17,556 nt of DNA from an uncultured Methylobacillus sp. (GTDB lineage Bacteria > Pseudomonadota > Gammaproteobacteria > Burkholderiales > Methylophilaceae): assembly GCA_946481235.1 (NCBI GenBank), contig CAMLME010000017.1, forward strand, positions 1 through 17,556, read 5' to 3'. The translations under genes and the position numbers were made by a program. The notes under the pieces were generated by a model that was given only the letters and a program-made list of their open reading frames with translations, searched no databases and was not told the origin of the DNA. Positions within the stretch are counted from its first letter, which is position 1. Each line of letters starts with the position of its first letter. Of this stretch, positions 1-13,531 are shown piece by piece.

Positions 1-1673
1 ACCACGCCGGAGCCGACCTGGAACTTCCACAACTCCTTGCCGGTGTTGGCGTCGAGTGCCTTGAACCAGCGATCCAGCGTGCCGTAGAACACCAGGTTGG
101 TGGAGGTGGCCAATACGCCGCCCCAGGCAGAGAACTTTTCCTTGTTGTACCAGACAGATTTGCCCTTGAGACCATCCCAGGCCATGAAGCCGCCCATTAC
201 GCCTTCCGGGCCGGCGAACATGGTCAGCGTCGAGCCCACCCACGGCTGGCCTGCAACGTATTTGGACTCGACCGGTTCATACGTCATGCACACATGGTTG
301 AGCGGAACGTAAAACAGACCGGTCTTCGGCGAGAAGGCCGCAGGCTGTTCATCCTTGACGCCCAGTGCGGACGGGCAGATGCCTTGCGCGTTGTAGTCCT
401 GGTGCGTGGAGTATTTGGGGTCCTTGTTAGGTACGCCGGACTTCAGGTTGATGGAAGTTGCCCAGTTGACGAACGGACGCATTTTTTCGGCGACGAGCAG
501 GTTGCCGTTGGTGCGATCGAATGTGTAGGCGAAACCGTTGCGGTCGAAGTGCGAAGCGAGCTTTTTGCCCTTGGCATCCCACAGGATGACTTCATTCATG
601 CCGTCGTAGTCCCACTCGTCATGCGGTGTCATCTGGTAGCCCCAGCGCGCCATGCCGGTATCCACGTCACGTGCGAAAATGGTCATCGACCACTTGTTGT
701 CGCCGGGGCGCACGTCCGGATTCCAGGTGCCAGGATTACCGGTGCCGTAATACACAAGGTTCAAAGCAGGGTCATAGGAATACCAGCCCCAGGTGGCGCC
801 GCCGCCATTCTGCCAGCCGTCCTTGCGGGCTTGCGGCTTGAGCCAGGTCTTAACACCGAGGTCGCTTTCCGGATACTTCAGTTGTTCCTTGGTCAGCGCC
901 TTGAACGAGCCGCCCAGCTTGTTGCCGCCGTTTACATCTTCATACAGGGACAGTGCGCTGTAATGCGGGTTTTCCTTGTTGAAGTCCTTGCCGATCAGCA
1001 CTTCGCTGTCCGGACCGGAACTGTATGCACGCCAGGCCAATGAACCGTCCTTGATGTTGTAGGCCGAAAGGTAGCAGCGCACGCCGTATTCGCCGCCGGA
1101 ACAACCGGTGACGACCTTGTCCTTGATGATGTGCGGTGCGCTGGTGGTTGAAGCACCTTCCTTGGTGTTCACGACGGTCACGTCCCAGATTTTTGCGCCG
1201 GTCTTGGCGTCAAGCGCGACCAGCACGCCGTCATTCTGTTGCAGGAAGATTTTGCCGTCGCCGTATCCCAGGCCGCGGTTGACGTTGTCGCAGCAGAGCA
1301 GCGACTGCACCGACGGATCCTGCTTGGGGAAGTACGACCACATGATCTTCTGGTTGTCGCTGAGGTCCAGTGCGTAGACGTTGTTGGGGAACGCGGTGTG
1401 GATGTACATGGTGTTGCCGATGACCAGCGGCGCGCCTTCGTGGCCGCGGTTGACGCCGGTGGCAAAGGTCCAGGCCAGCTTCAGCGACTTGACGTTGCCC
1501 TTGTTGATCTGGGAAAGACGGCTGTAGCCGGTGTTGGCGAAGTCCTTGCGGGGGTGCGCCCATTGGTTGTCGTCCTGCATGAGCTTTGTCAGCTCGTCGC
1601 TCGCCAATGCCGGCAGGCTAAGCAGGCCAAGCATGGTGGTACCGAGAGCCAGTTTCAACGGTTGAAATTTCAC
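1..1673 (-). CDS. xoxF: XoxF-type lanthanide-dependent PQQ methanol dehydrogenase, 3' end cut by window start
   Basis: Periplasmic quinoprotein that oxidises methanol to formaldehyde or formate and passes electrons to a cytochrome c. The 557 residues visible start at a GTG (1671-1673) preceded by GGAGA with a 6-nt spacer. Residues 1-24 form a signal peptide ending in PALA. Family marks are the vicinal disulfide C127-C128, a metal-ligand Glu at 195 (GGEYGVR), Asn 313 (GTGNPGTWNP) and HDEWDYDG at 351-358. Asp357, two residues after the catalytic Asp355, is the extra acidic residue that separates lanthanide-binding XoxF from calcium-binding MxaF, which has Ala there. By family length some 45-50 C-terminal residues are missing beyond the window. 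About 34 extra residues lie between Glu195 and Asn313 compared with the MxaF and SolV XoxF spacing. It is divergent from a sigma-54 activator and has its own -24/-12 promoter. The alternative, another PQQ alcohol dehydrogenase such as an ExaA/PedH type, is less likely because of the DEWDYDG context. Confidence 0.93.
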   Translation of the reverse strand, partial: MKFQPLKLALGTTMLGLLSLPALASDELTKLMQDDNQWAHPRKDFANTGYSRLSQINKGNVKSLKLAWTFATGVNRGHEGAPLVIGNTMYIHTAFPNNVYALDLSDNQKIMWSYFPKQDPSVQSLLCCDNVNRGLGYGDGKIFLQQNDGVLVALDAKTGAKIWDVTVVNTKEGASTTSAPHIIKDKVVTGCSGGEYGVRCYLSAYNIKDGSLAWRAYSSGPDSEVLIGKDFNKENPHYSALSLYEDVNGGNKLGGSFKALTKEQLKYPESDLGVKTWLKPQARKDGWQNGGGATWGWYSYDPALNLVYYGTGNPGTWNPDVRPGDNKWSMTIFARDVDTGMARWGYQMTPHDEWDYDGMNEVILWDAKGKKLASHFDRNGFAYTFDRTNGNLLVAEKMRPFVNWATSINLKSGVPNKDPKYSTHQDYNAQGICPSALGVKDEQPAAFSPKTGLFYVPLNHVCMTYEPVESKYVAGQPWVGSTLTMFAGPEGVMGGFMAWDGLKGKSVWYNKEKFSAWGGVLATSTNLVFYGTLDRWFKALDANTGKELWKFQVGSGV

Positions 1674-1704
1674 GCTATTTCTCCAAAGACTAGTTTTATT
1701 GATG

Positions 1705-1755
1705 GCGAAATCAGATTCGCTTGTCGTGATATCGGCGATTGCCGTATCATCGACA
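1705..1755 (-). promoter_or_regulatory. Structured 5' leader of xoxF (two tandem hairpins)
   Basis: On the minus strand, 1755-1722 folds as a long hairpin. TGTCG (bulged A) TGATA CGGC pairs with GCCG (bulged A) TATCA CGACA around an AATC loop, giving about 14 base pairs. A second hairpin follows at 1720-1705 (GCGAA/TTCGC, 6-nt loop). The rest of the leader to the SD looks unpaired. The predicted sigma-54 transcription start is about 1756, so the mRNA would begin directly with the first hairpin. There is no U-tract, so it is not a normal terminator. A role as a 5' stabiliser or regulatory leader is inferred. Confidence 0.6.
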
Positions 1756-1767
1756 CAACTCATCTAC

Positions 1768-1782
1768 GCAACTGGCGTGCCA
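1768..1782 (-). promoter_or_regulatory. Sigma-54 (-24/-12) promoter of xoxF
   Basis: Read on the minus strand the site is TGGCACGCCAGTTGC. It matches the sigma-54 consensus TGGCACG-N4-TTGC, with exactly 10 nt between the GG and GC dinucleotides. It points at xoxF and predicts a start near 1756 and a leader of about 83 nt. The divergent gene encodes a sigma-54-dependent activator, which supports the call independently. Confidence 0.85.
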
Positions 1783-1879
1783 GAGTGCGAAGATGCAGCA
1801 AGCGCATCACGGGAGGCGTTGTCCTGCAAGGCTTGGCCGCTGATCTCCGTATGCGTTCGAATAAAAATAATCGGGGAAT

Positions 1880-1889
1880 GAAACGTTTC
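1880..1889. promoter_or_regulatory. Candidate activator-binding palindrome (UAS 1)
   Basis: GAAACGTTTC is a perfect 10-bp palindrome centred about 104 bp upstream of the -24 element of the xoxF promoter. Enhancer sites for sigma-54 activators usually lie about 80-200 bp upstream. It is the nearer of two palindromes in the divergent region. An AT-rich tract at 1859-1871 lies between it and the promoter and could help bending. Binding by the adjacent regulator is inferred. Confidence 0.4.
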
Positions 1890-1909
1890 CCGTTGTCACG
1901 GAAATGCAC

Positions 1910-1920
1910 AGGTGTCACCT
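1910..1920. promoter_or_regulatory. Candidate activator-binding palindrome (UAS 2)
   Basis: AGGTG-T-CACCT is a perfect 5-1-5 inverted repeat, about 134 bp upstream of the xoxF -24 element and 52 bp before the regulator start. Related half-sites (GTTGTCAC at 1892, GGTGGCAC at 1924) lie on either side. It could serve both enhancer binding for xoxF and autoregulation of the activator gene. This is inferred from position and symmetry only. Confidence 0.45.
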
Positions 1921-1971
1921 GCGGGTGGCACAGTCAGCAACGATTTGAACAGGCCCCAGAGGACCCCGTCC

Positions 1972-3980: not shown

Positions 3981-4009
3981 TTGACTTGATAATTAAGAAT
4001 CATTATCAT
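3981..4009 (+). promoter_or_regulatory. Sigma-70 promoter with overlapping Fur-like box, driving hemP and the Ton operon
   Basis: The -35 element TTGACT (3981-3986) and -10 element TATCAT (4004-4009) are separated by 17 bp, each 5 of 6 to consensus. Between and over them, 3988-4007 reads GATAAT TAAGAAT CATTATC, an imperfect Fur box with GATAAT / ATTATC arms. A repressor bound there would cover both promoter elements, giving iron repression. The transcription start is predicted at about 4016-4017, on or next to the hemP ATG. Confidence 0.75.
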
Positions 4010-4016
4010 TCGCATC

Positions 4017-4205
4017 ATGATTAATTCGTCAGACAAGCCCGACACCATCGCCCACGCCGTTCAGGCAGGCGAGGGCATAGCCGCACGCAAGCGCATCAAC
4101 AGCCGCGAGCTGTTCGGGCCGTTGCGCGAGCTGGTGATCGAGCATGTCGGCGAAGAGTACCGCTTGCGTATCACCAATCAGGGCAAGCTGATCCTCACCA
4201 AGTAA
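4017..4205 (+). CDS. hemP: HemP/HmuP-family small protein
   Basis: The 62-residue protein ends in the HemP-family core: RINSRELFGPLRELVIEHVG, then EEYRLRITNQGKLILTK. HemP/HmuP proteins are cytoplasmic. In alpha- and betaproteobacteria they are needed for expression of haem or siderophore receptor genes and are typically Fur-controlled. Here it is the first gene after a promoter overlapped by a Fur-like box, ahead of tonB-exbB-exbD and two receptors, which fits a regulatory role for the operon. ATG 4017 has no Shine-Dalgarno, and the -10 element ends only 7 nt before it, so translation may be leaderless. No other in-frame ATG exists before the conserved core. Confidence 0.88.
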   Translation: MINSSDKPDTIAHAVQAGEGIAARKRINSRELFGPLRELVIEHVGEEYRLRITNQGKLILTK

Positions 4206-4215
4206 AAAAATCAAC

Positions 4216-4233
4216 CGCACCTGCACGGGTGCG
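4216..4233 (+). other. Short hairpin after hemP
   Basis: CGCACC (4216-4221) and GGTGCG (4228-4233) pair around a 6-nt loop, 11 nt after the hemP stop codon. There is no T-run. It may protect or attenuate the transcript between hemP and the tonB part of the operon. It directly precedes the first AGCCAGCC repeat. Confidence 0.35.
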
Positions 4234-4270
4234 AGCCAGCCAGGCGCCTTTAGCGTAGTAGCCAGCCAGC
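4234..4270 (+). repeat. AGCCAGCCAG repeat pair in the leader of the 78-aa gene
   Basis: AGCCAGCCAG at 4234-4243 recurs as AGCCAGCCAGC at 4260-4270, 26 bp apart. The same motif occurs as pairs in the other two large gaps of the operon (6526/6553 and 10103/10116), always 35-90 nt before a start codon. Confidence 0.6.
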
Positions 4271-4310
4271 ATTATGAAATTCGCTTCAGCAAGCATTGCT
4301 GGAGTTGGCT
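4260..4310 (+). promoter_or_regulatory. Leader hairpin with a competing inner stem before the 78-aa gene
   Basis: AGCC (4260-4263) can pair with GGCT (4307-4310), and CCAGCA (4266-4271) with TGCTGG (4297-4302). A rival stem, CAGCAA (4287-4292) with TTGCTG (4296-4301), uses part of the same right arm, so the two folds exclude each other. The SD-like AAAGGG and ATG 4325 follow closely. A switching leader is possible, but this is seen by eye only. Confidence 0.35.
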
Positions 4311-4324
4311 GACTAAAGGGCATT

Positions 4325-4561
4325 ATGAGCGCAAACAATCCATGCAATAAGACTGTGCTGGCCGGCGAAAGCGGTTGCAGGGTGGTCTATTGTCACGATT
4401 GCCATGTGGCGGAGCTCGAAGTGGGTTCCGTTAGCTTGCGACTCACGGATGATGCCTTCCGCAATCTTTCCAGCCTGATTGCGACTGCTGTCGGCAACCT
4501 GGACAGGGCGTCCCTGAACGATGGCGGGTTCTACGGACAGGATGGACGCCATGTCCACTAA
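4325..4561 (+). CDS. Unknown Cys-rich small protein, paralogue of the 86-aa protein at 13630
   Basis: The function is not recognised. The 78-residue protein has no signal peptide or membrane segment and is probably cytoplasmic. It has four cysteines (7, 18, 23, 26) and the cluster Y22-C-H-D-C-H27, which suggests metal or haem binding. Residues 17-50 align without gaps with residues 16-49 of the 86-aa protein near the far end of the operon (shared V, YC, L, G, L.L and DA positions). The start ATG 4325 follows AAAGGG with a 4-nt gap. The gene overlaps the preferred tonB start by 11 nt, so the two are probably translationally coupled. Position between hemP and tonB suggests a regulatory or metal-handling part in iron uptake, which is inference. 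Confidence 0.75.
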   Translation: MSANNPCNKTVLAGESGCRVVYCHDCHVAELEVGSVSLRLTDDAFRNLSSLIATAVGNLDRASLNDGGFYGQDGRHVH

Positions 4562-5351
4562 CACAGCCGTATCTTCTGGCGTCAACGTTGGAATGCCTGC
4601 CGAAAGCATGGCGCGCCTGGCTGCCATGCCCGATCTTCCTGGCATCCAGCTTCCTCGCATTGCACCCAAGTCGCTGGCATTGGTGGTCGCGCTGCATGTT
4701 GCGGTAATTGTCGTGCTGGCGAACCACCGCACGGAAGTGCCCGAGCCGCCGCGTCCCGTGATGGTCAGCCTGATTGCGCCGGAGCCTGCGCCGGAGGCCC
4801 CCAAGCCTGAAATCACACCTCCCAAGCCGCTGCCGGCGACGCCAAAACCGGTCAAGAAAAAAGCCGAACCCAAGCCTGTGAAGAAGCCTGAACCGGTCGT
4901 GCAACCCGAGCCGCAACTGGTGTCCTCGGCTCCCGAGAATACGCCTGCTCCCGCGGTCGAGCCGCCGGCACCTACGCCGCCTGCCCCCGCCCCTGAAGTT
5001 ACGCCTCCGCCGCAGCCTGAGGTTGCCAAGGCGGCTCCTCCCGCGCCGGCGGAAGAAGACCCGCCTATCGATCCGCCGCTCTTCAATGCCGATTATCTCG
5101 ACAACCCCGCTCCAGGTTATCCCTCGCTTTCACGGCGCCTGGGTGAAGAAGGGCGCGTCCTGCTGCGCGTGCACGTTGCGGCGGGCGGTGCTGCAAAGTC
5201 GGTAGTTCTGCATAAATCCAGCGGTCATTCGCGGCTGGATCAGGTCGCCCTCGATACCGTAAAGAGGTGGAAATTCGTACCCGCACGCCAGGGCGACAAG
5301 CCCGTGGACGCGTGGGTGATCGTACCGATTCAATTTAGCTTAAAGGGTTAG
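4551..5351 (+). CDS. tonB: TonB energy-transducing protein
   Basis: TonB links the inner-membrane ExbB-ExbD proton channel to outer-membrane receptors. Taken from ATG 4551 it has 266 residues. A single N-terminal membrane anchor (about 41-58, with His49 in the place of the conserved TonB membrane His) is followed by a long Pro/Lys/Glu-rich periplasmic spacer (about 62-180). The C-terminal TonB domain (189-266) begins YPSLSRRLGEEG and contains LDTVKRWKFVPAR. ATG 4551 is preferred because AGGA (4539-4542) sits 8 nt before it. In-frame ATGs at 4521 and 4542 are possible alternatives with poorer signals. It overlaps the upstream 78-aa gene by 11 nt and is followed after 2 nt by exbB. Confidence 0.93.
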   Translation: MSTNTAVSSGVNVGMPAESMARLAAMPDLPGIQLPRIAPKSLALVVALHVAVIVVLANHRTEVPEPPRPVMVSLIAPEPAPEAPKPEITPPKPLPATPKPVKKKAEPKPVKKPEPVVQPEPQLVSSAPENTPAPAVEPPAPTPPAPAPEVTPPPQPEVAKAAPPAPAEEDPPIDPPLFNADYLDNPAPGYPSLSRRLGEEGRVLLRVHVAAGGAAKSVVLHKSSGHSRLDQVALDTVKRWKFVPARQGDKPVDAWVIVPIQFSLKG

Positions 5352-5353
5352 CC

Positions 5354-6085
5354 ATGCAACAGACATTGGGATTCGCAAACTTTTTACAGACAGTCGACGG
5401 TGTCGGCATGTTTCTGCTGGTCGCGCTGGCGCTGTCGTCGATCGCCACGTGGTATCTGATCGTGACCAAGTCGATTGCCAACTGGCGCATGCGCCGCCAT
5501 GCAAAGAGTTTTCTGGCAGCGTTCTGGGAAGCCCCTAACCTCGATGTTGTGGCCGAGCGCCTGAACGACGGCATGCCGCGCGACCCGTTCTCGCACCTGG
5601 CGCATCACGGTTTCCGCGCGATTGCGCAGCATGGATCCAAGACTGGTCAGCGCATGATCGAAGCCGGCTCGCAGGAAGAGTTCCTCACCCGTTCGCTGCG
5701 CCGCGCCATCGAGCAGGACACCGCGCGTCTTGAATCCGGCCTGACAGTGCTGGCCTCGGTAGGCTCTAGCGCACCTTTCGTTGGCTTGTTCGGCACCGTG
5801 TGGGGCGTTTATCACGCACTGGTCGGCATCGGCATGAGCGGCCAGAGCACGCTCGATAAAGTGGCAGGGCCGGTGGGCGAGGCGCTGATCATGACCGCGC
5901 TCGGTCTTGCGGTGGCGATCCCGGCGGTGCTGGCATACAACTTCTTCACCCGTTCCAACCGCATGGTGCTGTCCGAACTGGACTCCTTCGCGCATGACCT
6001 GTTTGCCTTCATGTCCACCGGCGCCCGTATGGCCGAGCCGGCAGTTGAAGGCAAGGTGACGCCGATTTCCAAGCGGAGCGCATGA
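5354..6085 (+). CDS. exbB: ExbB proton-channel subunit
   Basis: Inner-membrane MotA/TolQ/ExbB-family protein that forms the pentameric proton channel with ExbD and energises TonB. The 243 residues show three membrane segments at about 16-38, 131-155 and 173-198. The signature GLFGTVWGVYHAL (144-156) and the third-helix GEALIMTALG, with Glu176, are present. The start ATG 5354 lies 2 nt after the tonB stop, with AAAGGG (5342-5347) as SD inside the end of tonB. Its stop overlaps the exbD start (ATGA), so the subunits are probably coupled in translation. Confidence 0.95.
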   Translation: MQQTLGFANFLQTVDGVGMFLLVALALSSIATWYLIVTKSIANWRMRRHAKSFLAAFWEAPNLDVVAERLNDGMPRDPFSHLAHHGFRAIAQHGSKTGQRMIEAGSQEEFLTRSLRRAIEQDTARLESGLTVLASVGSSAPFVGLFGTVWGVYHALVGIGMSGQSTLDKVAGPVGEALIMTALGLAVAIPAVLAYNFFTRSNRMVLSELDSFAHDLFAFMSTGARMAEPAVEGKVTPISKRSA

Positions 6086-6501
6086 TGGCGTTCGGCGGAT
6101 TCTCGAAAAACCAGGCCAGCCAGCCGATGGCGGAAATCAACATGATCCCGCTGATCGACGTGATGCTGGTGCTGCTGGTGATCTTCATCATCACCGCGCC
6201 CATGCTGAATCACGCGGTCAAGGTGGAGTTGCCCAAGGCCAGCTCGGCACCGGAAGAGCAGAAGCCGGACGTGATCCGGCTGACGATAGACGCTGCTGGT
6301 GCTGTTTACTGGAACGATCAGAAGCTCGAAGAAACCGAGTGGCGCACCCGCATGGCCGAAGCTTCCAAAAAACCGACGCAGCCTGAATTGCGCATACGCG
6401 CCGACGGCGCCAGCGCCTACCGCAACGTGGCGGGGGTGATGTCAGACGCGGCCAGTGCAGGATTAACCAAGATCGGATTTGTAACCGAGCCCAAGCTTTA
6501 A
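6082..6501 (+). CDS. exbD: ExbD proton-channel subunit
   Basis: ExbD/TolR-family protein with a single membrane helix. The 139 residues contain INMIPLIDVMLVLLVIFIIT, in which Asp26 is the essential protonatable residue. The periplasmic domain follows (about 45-139) and ends with the usual region around AGLTKIGFVTEP. The start overlaps the exbB stop as ATGA; a second ATG at 6085 would shift frame and is not used. Bases 6115-6128 within the gene match the leader repeat at 10116-10129 exactly over 14 nt. Confidence 0.94.
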   Translation: MMAFGGFSKNQASQPMAEINMIPLIDVMLVLLVIFIITAPMLNHAVKVELPKASSAPEEQKPDVIRLTIDAAGAVYWNDQKLEETEWRTRMAEASKKPTQPELRIRADGASAYRNVAGVMSDAASAGLTKIGFVTEPKL

Positions 6502-6525
6502 TCATTACAACAGCTATCAAACATC

Positions 6526-6560
6526 AGCCAGCCAGCACGAGTTATTCATGCAAGCCAGCC
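6526..6560 (+). repeat. AGCCAGCC repeat pair in the leader of the first receptor gene
   Basis: AGCCAGCCAGC (6526-6536) and AGCCAGCC (6553-6560) lie 27 bp apart in the 86-bp gap between exbD and the receptor gene. The spacing is close to the 26 bp of the pair at 4234/4260. The second copy starts inside the left arm of the start-codon hairpin. Confidence 0.6.
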
Positions 6561-6592
6561 GCAAAGACAACAAAGGGGAGTTCTTGCATGAA
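6545..6592 (+). promoter_or_regulatory. 10-bp inverted repeat enclosing the SD and containing the receptor start codon
   Basis: TTCATGCAAG (6545-6554) is the exact reverse complement of CTTGCATGAA (6583-6592). The receptor ATG (6588-6590) sits inside the right arm, and the SD AGGGGAG (6574-6580) lies in the 28-nt loop. Folding of the mRNA would bury the start codon. Translational control is inferred. Confidence 0.55.
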
Positions 6593-8756
6593 AGTAACAT
6601 TTAAACTGCGGCCACACCACGCCGCATTGCTGCTGGCGATTGCCGCATGGCCAACTCAGGCAGCTGACGCCGCAAAAGCGGAAGAAGGCGCAACCGCAAC
6701 AGGTGCTGAAACCACGTTGCCTGAAGTGAAAGTGCAGGCCGGCACTGAAAATGAAAGCCGCTACCAGCCGCTGACCACCAAGACCGCGGCCAAGATCGAA
6801 GCCGAGCTGCGCGATATTCCGCAGACCGTCAACGTAATTCCGGAGACATTGTTCCGCGACCAGGGCGCGCGCTCGATGAATGAAGTCCTGCGCAATGTGC
6901 CGGGCGTCGGTTTCAGCAATGGCGACGGCCAGCGCGACCAGGTGACCATTCGCGGATTCTCCGCGATTGCCGACCAGTTCATCGACGGCGTGCGCGACGA
7001 TGCGCTGTATTTCCGCGAGTTGGCCAACATTGAGCAGGTCGAAGTGCTGAAAGGTCCGGCATCGGTGCTCTACGGGCGCGGCTCTTCCGGCGGCCTCATC
7101 AACCGCATCACCAAGAAGCCTACTGACGATCCATTTACCAATGTGACGACGACTGTCGGCTCGTGGGACATGAAGCGCGTCGAGGTGGATTCCAACCAGC
7201 CATTGGGCGAGGTCGCCGCGTTCCGCATCAATGCGGCCGTGGAAGATTCGGGTAGTTTCCGCGACCAGGGCTTTACCGAGCGCAATTTCATCGCGCCCTC
7301 GCTGCAACTGAATATCTCGGAAAAGACCAGGCTGCTGTTCCAGGTGGAAAACCTGGAAGACAAGCGTGTGACCGACTTCGGTGTGCCGGCGATCAACGGC
7401 CGCCCAGTGGATGTGGACCCGGAGACCTACTACGGTTCCAGCGATGCGCGCGACGACGATTACACCGAGACCGATATGCTGTCCGGTGCAGTGACGCTGG
7501 AACATGAGTTCAACAATGGCTGGAAACTGAAGAACACCTTCCGGGCCAGTGACTACGATCTCAATCGTAACAACACCGTGGTAACGTCGGTCAACACGAC
7601 GACTCTGCTCGCCAATCGCCGTCACAGCTTCATCGACCGCCAGGAGCACGGCTACTTCAACCAGACCGACATCAGCACCAATGCGGATTGGTTGGGCATG
7701 AAGCATGCGTTGCTGTTCGGCATGGAGCTGGGCTACCAGGACAAGGATGCGCAGTCCGGCAGTTATGCCAATCCGGGTTCTGTAAGCCTGTACGATCCGC
7801 AGTCCAATGACAACACCGGCGCTAATCGCACGGTCACGGCCAGTACCCGTTCCCTGAGCCAGGTCGCCGGTTTCTATGTGCAGGATCTGATCACCCTGAA
7901 TCCCGAGTGGAAGGCGCTGGTAGGTGTTCGGCATGACCGTTTCGATCAGACTACGGAAAATGTCCTGACCGATACCCGTTTCGGGCGTACCGATACCGAA
8001 TTCAGTCCGCGTGCCGGGCTGGTCTATCAGCCGACACCCTGGGCCAGTGTTTACGCTTCGTATACGCAGTCGTTCCAGCCTTCGCAGGAAGTATTCGCGC
8101 TGGCTGCCAACAACACCGACATCGCGCCGGAAGAAACGACCAACTACGAAGTGGGAACCAAGCTGGATTTCCTCGGCGGCAATCTCTCCGCGATGGTTTC
8201 GCTGTTCCGTCTCGAGCGCACCAACATCAAGTCTGTCGATCCGACGGACACCACCAAGCTGATCCCGGTCGGTGAGCAGCGTACCGACGGCCTGGAGCTC
8301 TCTCTCAGTGGTCGCCCGGCGCATGGTTGGGATATCACCGCAGGCTATGCCTTCCTCGATGCTGAAATCACCAAGTCGCCAACGAGCGTCGGCGTGCCTA
8401 TCAGCGCCACAGGGGCGTCCTATCTTGTTGCTATAGAAGGGAATCGTCCCAGCCTGACACCTCGCCACAGCGCCAATCTGTGGGTGACGCGTCGTTTCGA
8501 CAACGGCTTTGGCCTCGGCGGCGGCGTGACTCTCATGGGTGAGCAGTTTGCATCGGTCAGCAATGAAGTGAAGCTGCCGGGATATGCCCGCGCGGACATG
8601 ACTGCATTCTATGAAACCAAGAAGTACGAAGTACGCCTGCTGGTCAACAACATCTTCGATCGAGAGTATTTCGAATCCGCCCATGGTTCCGTCGATATCG
8701 ACAACACCCCCGGCGCGCCGCGCAACGCGCAGTTGTCGCTCAAGCTGAAGTTCTAG
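6588..8756 (+). CDS. TonB-dependent siderophore receptor, Fiu/catecholate-like
   Basis: Outer-membrane 22-strand barrel with a plug that imports ferric chelates using TonB energy. The 722 residues begin with a signal peptide (to about AQA at 25). A TonB-box-like TTLPEVKVQA follows near residues 42-51. The plug carries LRDIPQTVNVIPE, LRNVPGVGFSNGDGQ, IRGFSAIADQFIDGVRDD and IEQVEVLKGPASVLYGRGSSGG. The barrel ends in the aromatic residue expected for outer-membrane insertion (LSLKLKF). Plug style is closest to Fiu/PiuA-type catecholate receptors, but substrate cannot be fixed from sequence. SD AGGGGAG lies 7 nt upstream within a potential start-codon hairpin. The next gene follows at 10 nt with its SD overlapping this stop. 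Confidence 0.93.
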   Translation: MKVTFKLRPHHAALLLAIAAWPTQAADAAKAEEGATATGAETTLPEVKVQAGTENESRYQPLTTKTAAKIEAELRDIPQTVNVIPETLFRDQGARSMNEVLRNVPGVGFSNGDGQRDQVTIRGFSAIADQFIDGVRDDALYFRELANIEQVEVLKGPASVLYGRGSSGGLINRITKKPTDDPFTNVTTTVGSWDMKRVEVDSNQPLGEVAAFRINAAVEDSGSFRDQGFTERNFIAPSLQLNISEKTRLLFQVENLEDKRVTDFGVPAINGRPVDVDPETYYGSSDARDDDYTETDMLSGAVTLEHEFNNGWKLKNTFRASDYDLNRNNTVVTSVNTTTLLANRRHSFIDRQEHGYFNQTDISTNADWLGMKHALLFGMELGYQDKDAQSGSYANPGSVSLYDPQSNDNTGANRTVTASTRSLSQVAGFYVQDLITLNPEWKALVGVRHDRFDQTTENVLTDTRFGRTDTEFSPRAGLVYQPTPWASVYASYTQSFQPSQEVFALAANNTDIAPEETTNYEVGTKLDFLGGNLSAMVSLFRLERTNIKSVDPTDTTKLIPVGEQRTDGLELSLSGRPAHGWDITAGYAFLDAEITKSPTSVGVPISATGASYLVAIEGNRPSLTPRHSANLWVTRRFDNGFGLGGGVTLMGEQFASVSNEVKLPGYARADMTAFYETKKYEVRLLVNNIFDREYFESAHGSVDIDNTPGAPRNAQLSLKLKF

Positions 8757-8766
8757 GAGAACAATA

Positions 8767-9420
8767 ATGAAAAAAATCATGCAAGTGCTAATCCTGCTGG
8801 GTATGGCGGCATCGTTGCCCGTGAAGGCGCATTACCTGTGGATCGAGCCGGCTGCGAATGGCGAGGCGCATCTGTGTTTCGGCGAATATGAAAACGCGTT
8901 GCGCGAAAAGTCGGGCGGGCGGCTGGATACGATTGCCATGCCCGAGGTGCAGGTTAACGATGACAAACGTACGGCTGTTGCAGTGCAGCGCAAAGACGAT
9001 TACCTGGCGCTTACCGCCAAGGCCGGTCAGCCACTGATTGCTCAGGAAATCACGATGAAAGTGAAAGACCTGCGTAAAAACAACATCGGCATCGTCAAGC
9101 CGATGTATTACACGCGCCTTGCCACGGCGGACGTTGAAGGTGCATCCGCGCTGGCGCTGGATATTCAGCCGCTGGGCGAGGGAAGAATGCGCGTCAGCCT
9201 GCATGGCAAACCGTTGGCCAAGGCCAAGCTGAACGTCTTCGCCCCAAATCAATGGCTACGCGAATACGAAACCGACGCACAGGGCGAAACCACGGTCGAA
9301 ACGCCATGGGCAGGGCTGTATGTGCTTGAAGTGGTACATGTGGAAGCGGAGAAGGGCGTTTACCAGGGCGATGCTTACGAGGGCATCCGCCATGTCGGCA
9401 CGCTTAGCCTGATTCGATGA
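8767..9420 (+). CDS. Periplasmic DUF4198-like protein
   Basis: The 217-residue secreted protein starts with a clear signal peptide (residues 1-21, ending PVKA). Predicted cleavage leaves HYLWIEP at the mature N-terminus, so His22 would be the first residue. The body resembles DUF4198-type proteins found beside TonB receptors: an early Trp-x-x-Pro motif and a C-terminal beta domain with PWAGLYVLEVVHVE and YEGIRHVGTLSL. The family is linked loosely to metal uptake; its biochemical role is not established. SD AGGAGA (8755-8760) overlaps the receptor stop, and the stop overlaps the next start as ATGA, so it belongs with the receptor and the PepSY-type gene. Confidence 0.8.
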   Translation: MKKIMQVLILLGMAASLPVKAHYLWIEPAANGEAHLCFGEYENALREKSGGRLDTIAMPEVQVNDDKRTAVAVQRKDDYLALTAKAGQPLIAQEITMKVKDLRKNNIGIVKPMYYTRLATADVEGASALALDIQPLGEGRMRVSLHGKPLAKAKLNVFAPNQWLREYETDAQGETTVETPWAGLYVLEVVHVEAEKGVYQGDAYEGIRHVGTLSLIR

Positions 9421-10064
9421 GGGCTGAGGCAGCGGCCCCGGCGCACGTCAGCCGGGCGAAATTCCTGCGCTGGCTGCGCCGCGTGCATGGCTGGCTGGGG
9501 TTGTGGGGCGCGGTACTGGGTTTGCTGTTCGGGGTGACAGGTTTTTTGCTTAACCATCGCGCCGTCATGAAGATCCCGGCATTGCAGATGGAGCAAAGCC
9601 AGTTCCAGATGGCGCTGCCCGCTACGGGTCCTGCGAATGCGCAAACCTTCGCGCTCTGGGTGCAGCAGCAGCTCAAGCTGCAGCAGTCGGCCTACAAGAT
9701 CCATGACGAGCCGGCCAGGGCTATTCCCTGGGGTGACGGCAAGCTGATACAGCCCGCGCAATGGAAGGCGGATTTTCATACGCCGCAGCATTCATGGAGT
9801 GCCGAGTACTGGGTGGGCAACCGCTTTGTCAGCGTCAAGCAGCAGGATGTCAATGCCTGGGGCTTCCTGATGCGTATGCACAAAGGCGTCGGCATGAGCA
9901 CTGGCTGGATACTGCTGGCCGACTCGCTGGCCGGCGCGATGCTGATCCTGTCGATTACCGGCGTGCTGTTGTGGACCAGGATGCGGGGCTCACGCCTGGC
10001 CCTGGCAGGACTGGTCGGGACGTCGTTGGGCCTGACAGTGTTATTCACCATGCAATCGCTTTAA
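9417..10064 (+). CDS. Short PepSY-associated membrane protein (putative siderophore-iron reductase)
   Basis: The 215-residue inner-membrane protein has one N-terminal helix (about 26-45), a periplasmic domain of about 100 residues, and two C-terminal helices (about 162-187 and 193-212). Histidines at helix ends (His24 in RRVHGWLGLW, His47 in LLNHRAVM, His155 in MRMHKGVG) match the PepSY-TM family, whose members such as FoxB bind haem and reduce ferric siderophores in the periplasm. It is about half the usual length of PiuB/FoxB proteins, so it may act as a dimer or be a minimal version. It overlaps the upstream gene by ATGA and forms a receptor / DUF4198 / reductase triplet. Confidence 0.8.
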   Translation: MRAEAAAPAHVSRAKFLRWLRRVHGWLGLWGAVLGLLFGVTGFLLNHRAVMKIPALQMEQSQFQMALPATGPANAQTFALWVQQQLKLQQSAYKIHDEPARAIPWGDGKLIQPAQWKADFHTPQHSWSAEYWVGNRFVSVKQQDVNAWGFLMRMHKGVGMSTGWILLADSLAGAMLILSITGVLLWTRMRGSRLALAGLVGTSLGLTVLFTMQSL

Positions 10065-10070
10065 ACATCG

Positions 10071-10085
10071 GCCGCCTCGAGCGGC
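10071..10085 (+). other. Small hairpin between the short PepSY-type gene and the second receptor
   Basis: GCCGC (10071-10075) and GCGGC (10081-10085) pair around CTCGA just after the upstream stop codon. It lacks a T-run, so it is at best a partial terminator or a stabiliser. A second small stem, AAGCT/AGCTT around AGCC, follows at 10098-10111. Confidence 0.35.
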
Positions 10086-10102
10086 TACTTAAAAATTAAG
10101 CT

Positions 10103-10127
10103 AGCCAGCTTTCACGCCAGCCAGCCG
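10103..10127 (+). repeat. AGCCAGC / GCCAGCCAGCC repeats in the leader of the second receptor gene
   Basis: AGCCAGC (10103-10109) and GCCAGCCAGCCG (10116-10127) lie in the 87-bp gap before the receptor. GCCAGCCAGCCGAT (10116-10129) also occurs exactly at 6115-6128 early in exbD. The motif resembles the pairs before the 78-aa gene and the first receptor. Confidence 0.55.
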
Positions 10128-10151
10128 ATACGAAACTCATCGGAGGTTGGC
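10120..10151 (+). promoter_or_regulatory. Hairpin partly covering the SD of the second receptor
   Basis: CCGAT (10125-10129) pairs with ATCGG (10139-10143). After an internal loop, GCC (10120-10122) pairs with GGC (10149-10151), directly before ATG 10152. The SD CGGAGG (10141-10146) is partly in the stem. The left arm is the AGCCAGCC repeat itself. Translational control is inferred. Confidence 0.4.
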
Positions 10152-12272
10152 ATGAAAATGCGCAATGCAACATTGGTATTGGCGTTAGCCGCGGCGTGGG
10201 GGATCGCAGCCCCTGCTGCTGCACAAGAGCAAATTGACGCGGAAGCCGCGCCGGAAACGGTTCTGCCCGAAGTGCAGGTGAACGTCGCGCCCCGGCTGGA
10301 TCTTCCCAGCGAAGAAACCGGTTCCTACACCGTTCGCAGCTCCAGTTCCGCCACCGGGTTGGATCTGAGCCTGCGCGAGACGCCGCAGTCGGTGTCGGTC
10401 ATCACGCAGGAGCAGATGGACGACTTTCGCCTGATTTCCATCAATGACGTGCTGGACAACGTGCCGGGCATCACGGTCGAGCGCGTCGAGACCGACCGCA
10501 CCTATTACTCCGCGCGCGGTTCCGACATTACCAACTTCCAGGTCGATGGCATCGGCATTCCCATGCCTTACGGCCTGATCGATGGCGATATCGACACTGC
10601 GGTGTATGACCGCATCGAGGTTGTCCGCGGCGCCAACGGGCTGATGTCGGCGACCGGCAATCCCTCTGCCACCGTTAACTTCATCCGCAAGCGGCCCACC
10701 GCCGACTTCAATGCTTCGGTCGATGTCTCGGCCGGCTCGTGGAATAATTATCGGCTGGAATCCGACGTTTCCGGCACGCTCAACGAAGCCGGAAATTTGC
10801 GCGGTCGGGCGGTGGTCGTCAAACAGGACAAGGATTCCTATCTCGACCGCTACCAGCACGACAAGACCGTGCTGTACGGCATCCTCGAAGCCGATCTCGG
10901 CGACAGCACGTTGCTCACCATCGGCCACACCTACCAGGAAAACGACGCAGACAGCCCCTTGTGGGGCGCGTTGCCGCTGATCTATAGCGATGGCCGCCGC
11001 GTCCATTACGACGTCTCCGCCAGCCCTGCCACGGACTGGGCGTACTGGAAATCGAAGGACAACCGCACATTTGCCGAGCTGGCGCACGATTTCGCCAATG
11101 GCTGGCAGGCCAAGGCGGTACTGACGCGGCGCGAAAACACCGAGGACAGCAATCTCTTTTTCGTAAATGGCATAACCGCCGACAGCATGACGACCTTCCC
11201 CAGCCTTTACGAGATGGAGAACGAGCAGTGGATTGCGGATGTTTACGCGAAAGGGCCGTTCAGCCTCGGCGGGCGCGAACACGACCTGACGGTAGGCGCC
11301 AGCTGGTCGAAATCCGATCTCGAGGCGGAGTCGCGGTACGGAACCTCGGTCGGGACGGCAATCACGCTGCAGGAGGTTCTGGCCGGTTCGTCGCCGAACA
11401 CCACCTATCCGACCGTGGGCGGTGAAGCCGATTTCCGCGACAAGCGCAGCAGCCTCTACGGCGCGGCGCACTTCAATGTGACCGACCGGCTGGACCTCAT
11501 TGGCGGCGCGCGCGTCACCGGCGTTAAAAGCGAAGGCGAAAGCTACAGCGTGGCTCACGAGTACGAACACAAGGGCGAGATCACGCCCTACGCCGGCATT
11601 GTGTATGCCTTGACCGACGTGCATTCCGCCTACGCCAGCTACACGGATATCTTCAACCCGCAGACGCAACTGGGCGCAGATCTCAAGCCGCTTGCGCCGC
11701 TTGAAGGCAAGAACTACGAGGCAGGCATCAAGAGCGAATGGCTGGGCAAAAAGCTGAACAGCACGTTCGCCGTTTTCAAGAATACGCAGGACAACGTGGC
11801 GGAATTCGCCGGAACCGTTTCCGGATTATCGACCTATCGCGGCATCAGCGCCGACACCAAGGGGTTTGAAATCGACGTCGCGGGCGAAGTCACGGATCGC
11901 CTGAAAGTGCAGGGCGGCTATACAGCGATGTCTATCGAGGGCGACGATGGCGAAGACGTGAAAACCTACACCCCGCGCCATATTTTCAATCTCTCGACCA
12001 CCTACCGCGTGCCGATGGTGGAAGGCCTGAAGGTGGGGATGAATATCAACTGGCGAGGCGATATTTACCGCGAGGTTTCCGGATTCCGCGTTTATCAGGA
12101 AAGCTACGCATTGGTCGATCTCATGGCCGCCTATGAAATCGATAAGCGCACCACGCTCACCCTCAACCTCGACAACGTGACGGACGAGAAATACCTGACC
12201 AGCCTGCTGTGGGATCAGAGTTTCTACGGCACGCCACGCAGCGCCAGCCTGACGCTGAGCTGGAAGTACTAG
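10152..12272 (+). CDS. TonB-dependent siderophore receptor, FhuE/FpvA-like
   Basis: Outer-membrane receptor of 706 residues. A signal peptide ends near AAAQEQ, followed by a TonB-box-like TVLPEVQVNV. The plug contains LRETPQSVSVITQEQMDDF, DVLDNVPGITVERVETDR, YSARGSDITNFQVDG and DRIEVVRGANGLMSATGNPSATVNFIRKRP, the style of ferric-hydroxamate and pyoverdine receptors (FhuE, FpvA) rather than of the upstream Fiu-like one. The barrel ends in LTLSWKY with a terminal aromatic residue. SD CGGAGG (10141-10146) lies 5 nt before ATG 10152; ATG 10158 is a weaker alternative. It is followed within 5 nt by its own PepSY reductase gene. Substrate is inferred only at family level. Confidence 0.93.
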   Translation: MKMRNATLVLALAAAWGIAAPAAAQEQIDAEAAPETVLPEVQVNVAPRLDLPSEETGSYTVRSSSSATGLDLSLRETPQSVSVITQEQMDDFRLISINDVLDNVPGITVERVETDRTYYSARGSDITNFQVDGIGIPMPYGLIDGDIDTAVYDRIEVVRGANGLMSATGNPSATVNFIRKRPTADFNASVDVSAGSWNNYRLESDVSGTLNEAGNLRGRAVVVKQDKDSYLDRYQHDKTVLYGILEADLGDSTLLTIGHTYQENDADSPLWGALPLIYSDGRRVHYDVSASPATDWAYWKSKDNRTFAELAHDFANGWQAKAVLTRRENTEDSNLFFVNGITADSMTTFPSLYEMENEQWIADVYAKGPFSLGGREHDLTVGASWSKSDLEAESRYGTSVGTAITLQEVLAGSSPNTTYPTVGGEADFRDKRSSLYGAAHFNVTDRLDLIGGARVTGVKSEGESYSVAHEYEHKGEITPYAGIVYALTDVHSAYASYTDIFNPQTQLGADLKPLAPLEGKNYEAGIKSEWLGKKLNSTFAVFKNTQDNVAEFAGTVSGLSTYRGISADTKGFEIDVAGEVTDRLKVQGGYTAMSIEGDDGEDVKTYTPRHIFNLSTTYRVPMVEGLKVGMNINWRGDIYREVSGFRVYQESYALVDLMAAYEIDKRTTLTLNLDNVTDEKYLTSLLWDQSFYGTPRSASLTLSWKY

Positions 12273-12277
12273 CCATC

Positions 12278-13531
12278 ATGCGTGCATCGCTCGTCCTTCT
12301 GCATCGCTGGTTCGGACTGTTCATGGCCGTGTTCCTGTTTGTCTCCGGCCTCACCGGGGCGATCATCTCATGGGATCACGAACTGGACGAATGGCTGAAC
12401 CCGCAGATGTACCAGGCCAGGAGCGGCGACGAGAGAATCACGCAATCCGCACTGGCGCTGGCGGAACAGTTCGAGGCACAGGACAAGCGCGTCATGGTCA
12501 CCTACCTGCCGCTCGGCATCGAGCCCGGCCACACCCAGGGCATGTCGGTCCGGGCCAGGCCGGACCCGGTGACCGGCAAGGCGTATCCGCTCGACTACAA
12601 CCAGGTGGCGCTCGATCCCGCCACCGGCGCAGTGCAAGGCAGCCGTATGTGGGGCGATGTGTCGCTCACCCGCGAAAACCTGCTGCCATTCCTCTACAAG
12701 CTGCATTACAGCCTGCATATTCCGGATGGTTTCGGCATGAAACTGGGCGTGCTGTTCATGGGGATCGTCGGCATCGTGTGGGTGATCGACAGTTTCATTG
12801 CGCTGTGGATTTCATTTCCCAACGGCAATGCCTGGCGCAAGTCGTTCGCTTTTCGTTGGAAACAGGGCGGTTACAGGCTCAATTTCGACTTGCACCGCTC
12901 GGGCGGTGTCTGGCTGTGGGCGCTGCTGCTGATACTGGCGGTCACTTCGGTATCGATGAACCTGAATTTCCAGGTGGTACGACCCGTGGTGTCACTGTTT
13001 TCCGAACTCGCGCCCAGCCCCTTTGCGATACGCGCGCCCAATCCGCCGGACCAGCCGCGCGCGCCGCACATCGGCCGCGAACAGGTGATCGCGCTGGCCA
13101 AGGCGGAAGCGGAAAAGCGCAACTGGAAGCTGCCCGCCGGGGGCGTGTTCTACAACCCGGAGGTCGGCATCTATGGCGTCGGCTTCTTCGAACCCGGTCA
13201 CGACCACGGCGACGGCGGACTCGGCAATGCCTGGCTGTATTTCGACGGGCAGGACGGGCGATTCATCAGCGCGCTGGTGCCGGGTACGGGCAGCGCCGGC
13301 GATATTTTCATGCAGGCGCAGTTTCCGCTGCATTCCGGACGCATTCTCGGGCTTCCTGGGCGCATCCTGGTTTCGCTCATGGGATTGGCAGTAGCCATGC
13401 TGTCGGTCACCGGTGTCGTGATCTGGGCGCGGAAGCGAGCCGCTCGGGCTTCGCTCGCGCGCAATGCCGCACCTGCGGTCGGGGCCGATAAAAGTCAGCG
13501 CATTCCTACTCCCGCGCATGAGATTTCATAA
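12278..13531 (+). CDS. PepSY-associated membrane reductase, FoxB/PiuB-like
   Basis: The 417-residue inner-membrane protein probably reduces ferric siderophores delivered by the adjacent receptor. Four membrane segments lie at about 8-31, 155-178, 208-228 and 362-384, with a long periplasmic PepSY region between each pair. Conserved helix-end histidines are His9 (LLHRWFGL), His143 and His147 (KLHYSLH), His206 (DLHRSGGVW) and His352 (PLHSGRILGLPGR), the pattern of haem-binding PepSY-TM proteins. A histidine/acid-rich loop, GHDHGDGG (308-315), precedes the last part. The start is placed at ATG 12278, just 5 nt after the receptor stop; the frame is open further upstream but only over the receptor's C-terminus. 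The SD is weak (GGAAG), so coupling to the receptor is likely. Confidence 0.88.
   Translation: MRASLVLLHRWFGLFMAVFLFVSGLTGAIISWDHELDEWLNPQMYQARSGDERITQSALALAEQFEAQDKRVMVTYLPLGIEPGHTQGMSVRARPDPVTGKAYPLDYNQVALDPATGAVQGSRMWGDVSLTRENLLPFLYKLHYSLHIPDGFGMKLGVLFMGIVGIVWVIDSFIALWISFPNGNAWRKSFAFRWKQGGYRLNFDLHRSGGVWLWALLLILAVTSVSMNLNFQVVRPVVSLFSELAPSPFAIRAPNPPDQPRAPHIGREQVIALAKAEAEKRNWKLPAGGVFYNPEVGIYGVGFFEPGHDHGDGGLGNAWLYFDGQDGRFISALVPGTGSAGDIFMQAQFPLHSGRILGLPGRILVSLMGLAVAMLSVTGVVIWARKRAARASLARNAAPAVGADKSQRIPTPAHEIS

Follow-up and report, generated by a model that had tools for sequence, protein, structure and literature searches.

Organisation of the xoxF locus

The window, by which we mean the whole stretch of DNA analysed (17,556 nucleotides), carries at its left edge a xoxF gene and, divergent from it across a gap of 299 bases, the gene of a sigma-54-dependent activator. 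Within the gap lie a predicted -24/-12 promoter, two palindromes and a putative upstream activating sequence (Table 1). The xoxF reading frame, the 3' part of which is cut by the window edge, starts with the GTG at 1673, preceded by GGAG. An ATG at 1763, which comes after the -12 element but ahead of the predicted transcript start, was considered as the start instead and rejected because relatives keep the GGAG/GTG of 1673.

Table 1. Positions of the genes and sequence elements at the xoxF locus of the window.
Feature	Position	Strand	Remarks
xoxF, XoxF4-2-like lanthanide-type methanol dehydrogenase gene	3..1673	minus	PQQ domain; TIGR03075 above cut-off; WDYDG
Predicted -24/-12 sigma-54 promoter TGGCACGCCAGTTGCG, facing xoxF	1767..1782	minus	Transcript start predicted near 1756
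Palindrome GAAACGTTTC	1880..1889		Absent from L087
Putative upstream activating sequence GTGACACCTGTGCATTTCCGTGACA	1894..1918	minus	Centre 124 bp above -24
Palindrome CAGGTGTCACCTG	1909..1921		Also in L087; overlaps the 1894-1918 block
GAF-AAA+-Fis sigma-54-dependent activator gene, 629 aa	1972..3861	plus	PF01590, PF00158, PF02954

In a sequence search against solved structures the top PDB matches of the enzyme are the XoxF chains 6oc5 and 6dam. It possesses the extra aspartate of the lanthanide site (the DxD in WDYDG), the relevant residues being listed in PMC11845868. The motif likewise reads WDYDG in 6dam and 4mae; it is WDFDG in 6oc5 and WDYAG in 4tqo and 9ism.

The divergent gene was described in an earlier note on this DNA as an intact activator of the GAFTGA type, and its translation bears this out. 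Besides the GAF domain we find the Sigma54_activat AAA+ domain (224 bits against a cut-off of 20.2), with the GAFTGA loop, the Walker A motif GETGVGKE and the Walker B motif LFLDEIGD, and at the C-terminus the DNA-binding helix-turn-helix HTH_8 (residues 595-626). Among the 25 best NCBIfam models listed, no equivalog passes its threshold, and the search against solved structures returned only AAA+ and C-terminal matches, none of them informative about the GAF ligand. Where organism names are given for the 120 best proteins listed, they are mostly those of Methylophilaceae or of genera belonging to this family. The window itself resembles Methylophilaceae DNA.

On the other side of the activator, positions 3995-13528 hold an iron-type uptake cluster composed of hemP, tonB, exbBD, two genes for TonB-dependent receptors, a DUF4198 gene and two PepSY genes; ahead of hemP, at 3995, lies a weak match to a Fur box (13 of 19). 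G449, the closest relative, retains this cluster apart from the second receptor gene and the second PepSY gene (10152-13528). We rejected this cluster as part of the module, for among six relatives viewed over 9.5-13.8 kb only G449 has it; in G453 we saw one receptor gene, a distant one (29% identity).

A predicted -24/-12 promoter facing xoxF is conserved in the family

A near-perfect -24/-12 element had been claimed to face xoxF. The element, TGGCACGCCAGTTGCG, deviates from TGGCACGNNNNTTGCW by one mismatch, keeps GG-N10-GC and is the sole match with at most one mismatch across the whole window. Shuffled windows contain on average 0.34 matches as good, with one or more present in 57 of 200 shuffles; thus, finding such an element by itself anywhere within 17.5 kb would not be unusual, which is the one point in favour of a chance match. 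For the 299-base gap and the correct strand, simple arithmetic gives an expectation of about 0.003.

We searched for relatives of the activator at two levels. Five of 399 genomes sampled from the order contain it at E <= 1e-190. All five were recovered in the search of the family, where 53 out of 187 genomes possess an activator at E <= 1e-150, at 59 places in all. At 45 of these places it is divergent to xoxF (43 judged from coordinates, plus G547 and G466). The remaining 14 are two in G451, one in G541, one in G567 (C13), which adjoins an aldehyde dehydrogenase gene, and ten in a separate clade. No xoxF was seen within the 4.9 kb examined at one of the two G451 activators, nor within the 3.6 kb examined at that of G541, and the existence of such activators of the same clade counts against our explanation. 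The two activator copies of G451 (L105) score equally, and no xoxF is listed beside either.

The divergent pairs were examined as 30 loci plus the window in one set, from which L105 and L108 had been dropped for having no xoxF in the stretch examined, and as 15 in a second one. All 45 pairs, as well as the window, have a -24/-12 element that agrees with the consensus at 10 or more of 12 positions and whose end lies 76-134 bp upstream of the xoxF start. As a negative set served xoxF copies standing apart from an activator. At least 150 xoxF places exist in the family; 107 of those listed have no adjacent activator, and for 100 of these about 400 bases upstream of each xoxF were scanned. Of these copies, 96 score at most 9 and four carry a -24/-12 element; shuffled upstream regions reach a score of 10 in 0.5-1.6% of cases. 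Both sets support the proposal of a sigma-54 promoter for xoxF accompanied by a divergent activator. The four exceptions are all 83% identical to the window XoxF. Two of them lie on short contigs (4.7 kb in G474 and 3.2 kb in G573), the one in G452 stands beside a broken activator, and the one in G567 has no neighbouring activator, those listed for this genome being on other contigs. The G567 and G452 copies count against our explanation, since in these cases either the site is a relic or a different protein must be the activator. The broken gene in G452 (L244) is split into at least three open frames, beside a xoxF with both promoter and upstream block; this genome has a second activator, adjoining another xoxF.

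With place, strand, family-wide conservation and a clean negative set taken together, coincidence is in effect refuted as the origin of the element. Another reading is that xoxF is driven mainly from a sigma-70 promoter and that the contribution of the sigma-54 site is small. Many promoters escape consensus scans and the start belonging to the -24/-12 element is a predicted one; however, a sigma-70 scan of 1600-2050 found a single site, on the plus strand and none facing xoxF, and the -24/-12 element is kept in every pair while the remaining gap is variable. We therefore consider a main sigma-70 promoter improbable. An rpoN domain is encoded in 176 of the 187 family genomes, too many for its presence to be informative as a search criterion.

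A conserved block far upstream of the promoter

Alignment of the relatives revealed a conserved block of 25 bp far above the -24 element. With an expectation-maximisation matrix trained on all 50 promoters it is recognised in 49, centred 103-156 bp above -24 and in 28 of the 49 within 121-125 bp, so that a candidate enhancer at least about 100 bp upstream is present in nearly all of them; only L093 has no block recognisable by this matrix search. When the matrix was trained with the window and its closest relative L087 left out, 1894-1918 ranked first in the window with 17.5, the next site having 6.0. For a held-out test the matrix was trained on 31 promoters. It gave 12.5-21.5 for all 15 other adjacent promoters and 17.5-23.6 for the four promoter-bearing xoxF copies of the negative set; the other 96 copies reached at most 5.8. 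The full matrix yielded at most 8.3 on 500 shuffles of upstream regions. As a pattern searched through 16 chosen genomes, the block matched ten times with no or one mismatch, always at a xoxF promoter, which suggests one main site in each genome; six genomes were without a match of this quality. With two mismatches there were 14 matches, one of them at a xoxF promoter. The reversed control yielded eight matches.

Two palindromes had originally been proposed as the enhancers. One of them, CAGGTGTCACCTG, overlaps the conserved block, and to this extent the proposal stands. The other, GAAACGTTTC, was rejected, as it is missing from the 92% relative L087. Conservation of both kinds of element upstream of xoxF orthologues had been suggested as a check: the -24/-12 element is kept; relatives other than L087 do not retain the palindrome CAGGTGTCACCTG as such.

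Perfect IHF-like sites (WATCARNNNNTTR) occur in 19 of the 50 promoters, all on one strand and either 53 bp (15 cases) or 64-65 bp (4 cases) above -24. Allowing up to one mismatch, such sites are found in 32 of the 50, compared with 16.8 expected. The window itself has no good IHF-like site, its best one showing two mismatches. Helical phasing of the block gave p = 0.0008 against uniform spacing; we set this aside as evidence because shared ancestry makes the uniform-spacing test too generous.

In the window the block lies between both genes, 54-78 bases before the activator start, where a repressor site for the activator gene could also sit. It might accordingly serve the activator gene in an autoregulatory manner, with something else controlling xoxF through the same gap. 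Against this, the block holds its place relative to -24, and it also precedes the four xoxF copies for which no adjacent activator is listed. Such a role as the only one appears to us improbable, although a role for xoxF and one for the activator gene may coexist.

The predicted promoter accompanies one type of xoxF

A tree was built from 21 XoxF proteins. Nine out of ten promoter-less copies group in a single clade (100/100), and the remaining one, L280, is a long branch. The nine main sigma-54-linked copies, including that of the window, fall outside this clade and do not form one supported clade of their own. The -24/-12 element, the activator gene and the block are present, conserved and associated with one type of xoxF. 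The window protein pairs with G449 (100/99), and G499 comes next at 80/77 only. G499 has two xoxF genes, with a small cytochrome c gene behind the activator-linked copy. Such a gene is described behind mmol_1770 (PMC3728764), which is given as the gene of XoxF4-2 (PMC6028718). On these grounds, and taking G499 as Methylotenera mobilis JLW8, we tentatively infer that the window xoxF is most like XoxF4-2 (Mmol_1770) of that species.

Genes for c-type cytochromes (CXXCH) stand directly behind the sigma-54-linked xoxF in L233, L235, L236, L237, L241 and L242; their products come in two sizes, about 115 and about 170 residues. In the flanks inspected, none was seen in L234, L239, L240, L245 and L246, nor directly behind xoxF in G449. 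L276 and L281 represent a second subtype of sigma-54-linked XoxF, with WDYDA or WDFDA replacing WDYDG and with activators 53-56% identical to that of the window. In the tree the two copies of the second subtype (G453, G027) pair at 100/100.

Origin of the activator

In a tree of 67 activator rows the xoxF-linked ones form one clade of 42 rows (100/98), a figure which includes L105 and L108, where no xoxF was seen, and one duplicate. Next to this clade (99/99) stands the activator of G567 C13 with its aldehyde dehydrogenase neighbour. Five activators not linked to xoxF had their flanks examined, and four of them are located beside aldehyde dehydrogenase genes. The fifth (L128, G449 C1) is a paralogue whose neighbour is a chemotaxis-type FIST/MCP gene; the gap between the two contains a -24/-12-like site with a score of 10.

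An activator scan of genome contigs gave at least 80 loci, with identities of at best 47% among the matches listed. Also among the matches listed, no adjacent XoxF is more than 36% identical; L046 has a 56% XoxF match about 3 kb away. Within L001-L046, six loci among the matches listed have an aldehyde dehydrogenase of 69-76% identity, divergent within about 600 bp, and the divergent one of L023 is 46% identical. Ten aldehyde dehydrogenase gaps contain -24/-12-like sites with scores of 9-12 of 12, taken without a shuffle control, and the upstream block matrix gives at most 9.2 there. Residues of the GAF domain set the xoxF-linked clade apart from the aldehyde-dehydrogenase-linked one. The simplest reading of these relationships is that a switch of the aldehyde dehydrogenase type may have been re-aimed at xoxF.

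A model for the control of xoxF

We propose that the -24/-12 element at 1782-1767 would serve sigma-54 RNA polymerase for the transcription of xoxF. The GAF-AAA+-Fis protein encoded by the divergent gene would bind the upstream site at 1894-1918, reach the promoter by DNA looping, perhaps with the help of IHF in some of the relatives, and open it through ATP hydrolysis once its GAF domain has become active. Judged from sequence comparison, we assign this explanation as a whole a probability of about 0.86. From the same evidence we infer that the activator probably binds the block, that rpoN is probably needed and that the effect would be activation. Sigma-54 promoters are generally silent without their activator, and the model consequently makes sharp predictions.

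As the signal for the GAF domain we would guess an alcohol or aldehyde of small size, since aldehyde dehydrogenase genes with -24/-12-like sites adjoin several relatives of the activator. The governing signal might instead be lanthanide, acting via another protein, so that the promoter and activator proposed here would add a further level to the lanthanide switch already known. In favour of this, the enzyme belongs to the lanthanide type, lanthanides are described as inducing xoxF and repressing mxaF in other methylotrophs (PMC12482762), and JLW8 is reported to grow on methanol with lanthanum (PMC4109929). On the other hand, further lanthanide-type xoxF copies in the same genomes do not have this promoter, and GAF activators of the same architecture adjoin aldehyde dehydrogenase and not lanthanide genes. 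A lanthanide signal of this kind seems unlikely.

Published expression data bear on the strength of such a switch. In a study of three species (PMC3728764), mmol_1770 is given as raised 4-6 fold in situ, where it ranked with the most highly expressed genes, msip34_0016 as about 100 fold up yet low, and m301_1208 as very low throughout; low laboratory expression of XoxF4-2 has been suggested elsewhere (PMC6028718). This pattern fits a strong switch in two of the three species. Different xoxF copies were expressed differently in the same three-species study (PMC3728764), and our results suggest separate controls for different xoxF copies of one cell. Going further, a one-component sigma-54 switch, gated by an intracellular C1 metabolite and not by a two-component lanthanide switch, might be the main control of XoxF4-2 in Methylophilaceae, having arisen from an aldehyde-dehydrogenase-type GAF activator re-aimed at xoxF. 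We put this forward tentatively, at somewhat less than even odds; it would explain weak laboratory expression yet near-natural induction in two of three species.

According to one study, most xoxF sequences (over half) in Lake Washington sediment metatranscriptomes come from the XoxF4 clade, which is tied there to Methylophilaceae (PMC12482762). How a xoxF4 gene is turned on was not found described in the accessible parts of the open-access literature. For M. mobilis JLW8, both single and double xoxF mutants are available (PMC6028718, its Table 1). A promoter can now be named for xoxF4, together with candidates for its enhancer and its activator, and the family includes a strain amenable to genetics, so that the regulation of this enzyme has become testable.

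Comparison with known systems

AcoR consists of a GAF domain, a sigma-54 activation domain and a Fis-type helix-turn-helix. The window activator shares this order, GAF-AAA+-Fis, and in this respect was rightly called AcoR-like; the name does not extend to its neighbourhood, which consists of xoxF and the iron-type uptake cluster and contains no acetoin genes. In Pseudomonas putida, AcoR is described as the activator of acetoin genes (PMC8427195). Related systems are the GAF-type, AcoR-like activators beside aldehyde dehydrogenase genes, with which the window has in common the domain order, the divergent pair and -24/-12-like sites before the dehydrogenase gene. In contrast to these systems the target here is a lanthanide methanol dehydrogenase, and the upstream block is weak there.

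Sigma-54 control is also described for a PQQ alcohol dehydrogenase gene, where a LuxR-type response regulator is involved, whereas the window combines a GAF enhancer-binding protein with a lanthanide-type XoxF. The soluble methane monooxygenase genes, with RpoN and MmoR, provide another case of C1 oxidation controlled through a -24/-12 promoter and a dedicated sigma-54 regulator (PMC5874634, PMC6778391), but both the enzyme and the bacteria differ. For xoxF itself, a GAF/sigma-54 regulator gene in its vicinity appears in one figure legend; no sigma-54 promoter or enhancer, and no test of an activator, was found described for any xoxF in the accessible parts of the open-access literature. Finally, MxbDM, MxcQE, MxaY/MxaB and PedS2/PedR2 resemble the proposed system in controlling lanthanide-dependent alcohol dehydrogenases (PMC11845868). 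All of these are of the two-component type, whereas the window presents a one-component GAF activator together with sigma-54. The view that this would be an unusual wiring fits the account in that one review of lanthanide regulation, which gives two-component systems (PMC11845868).
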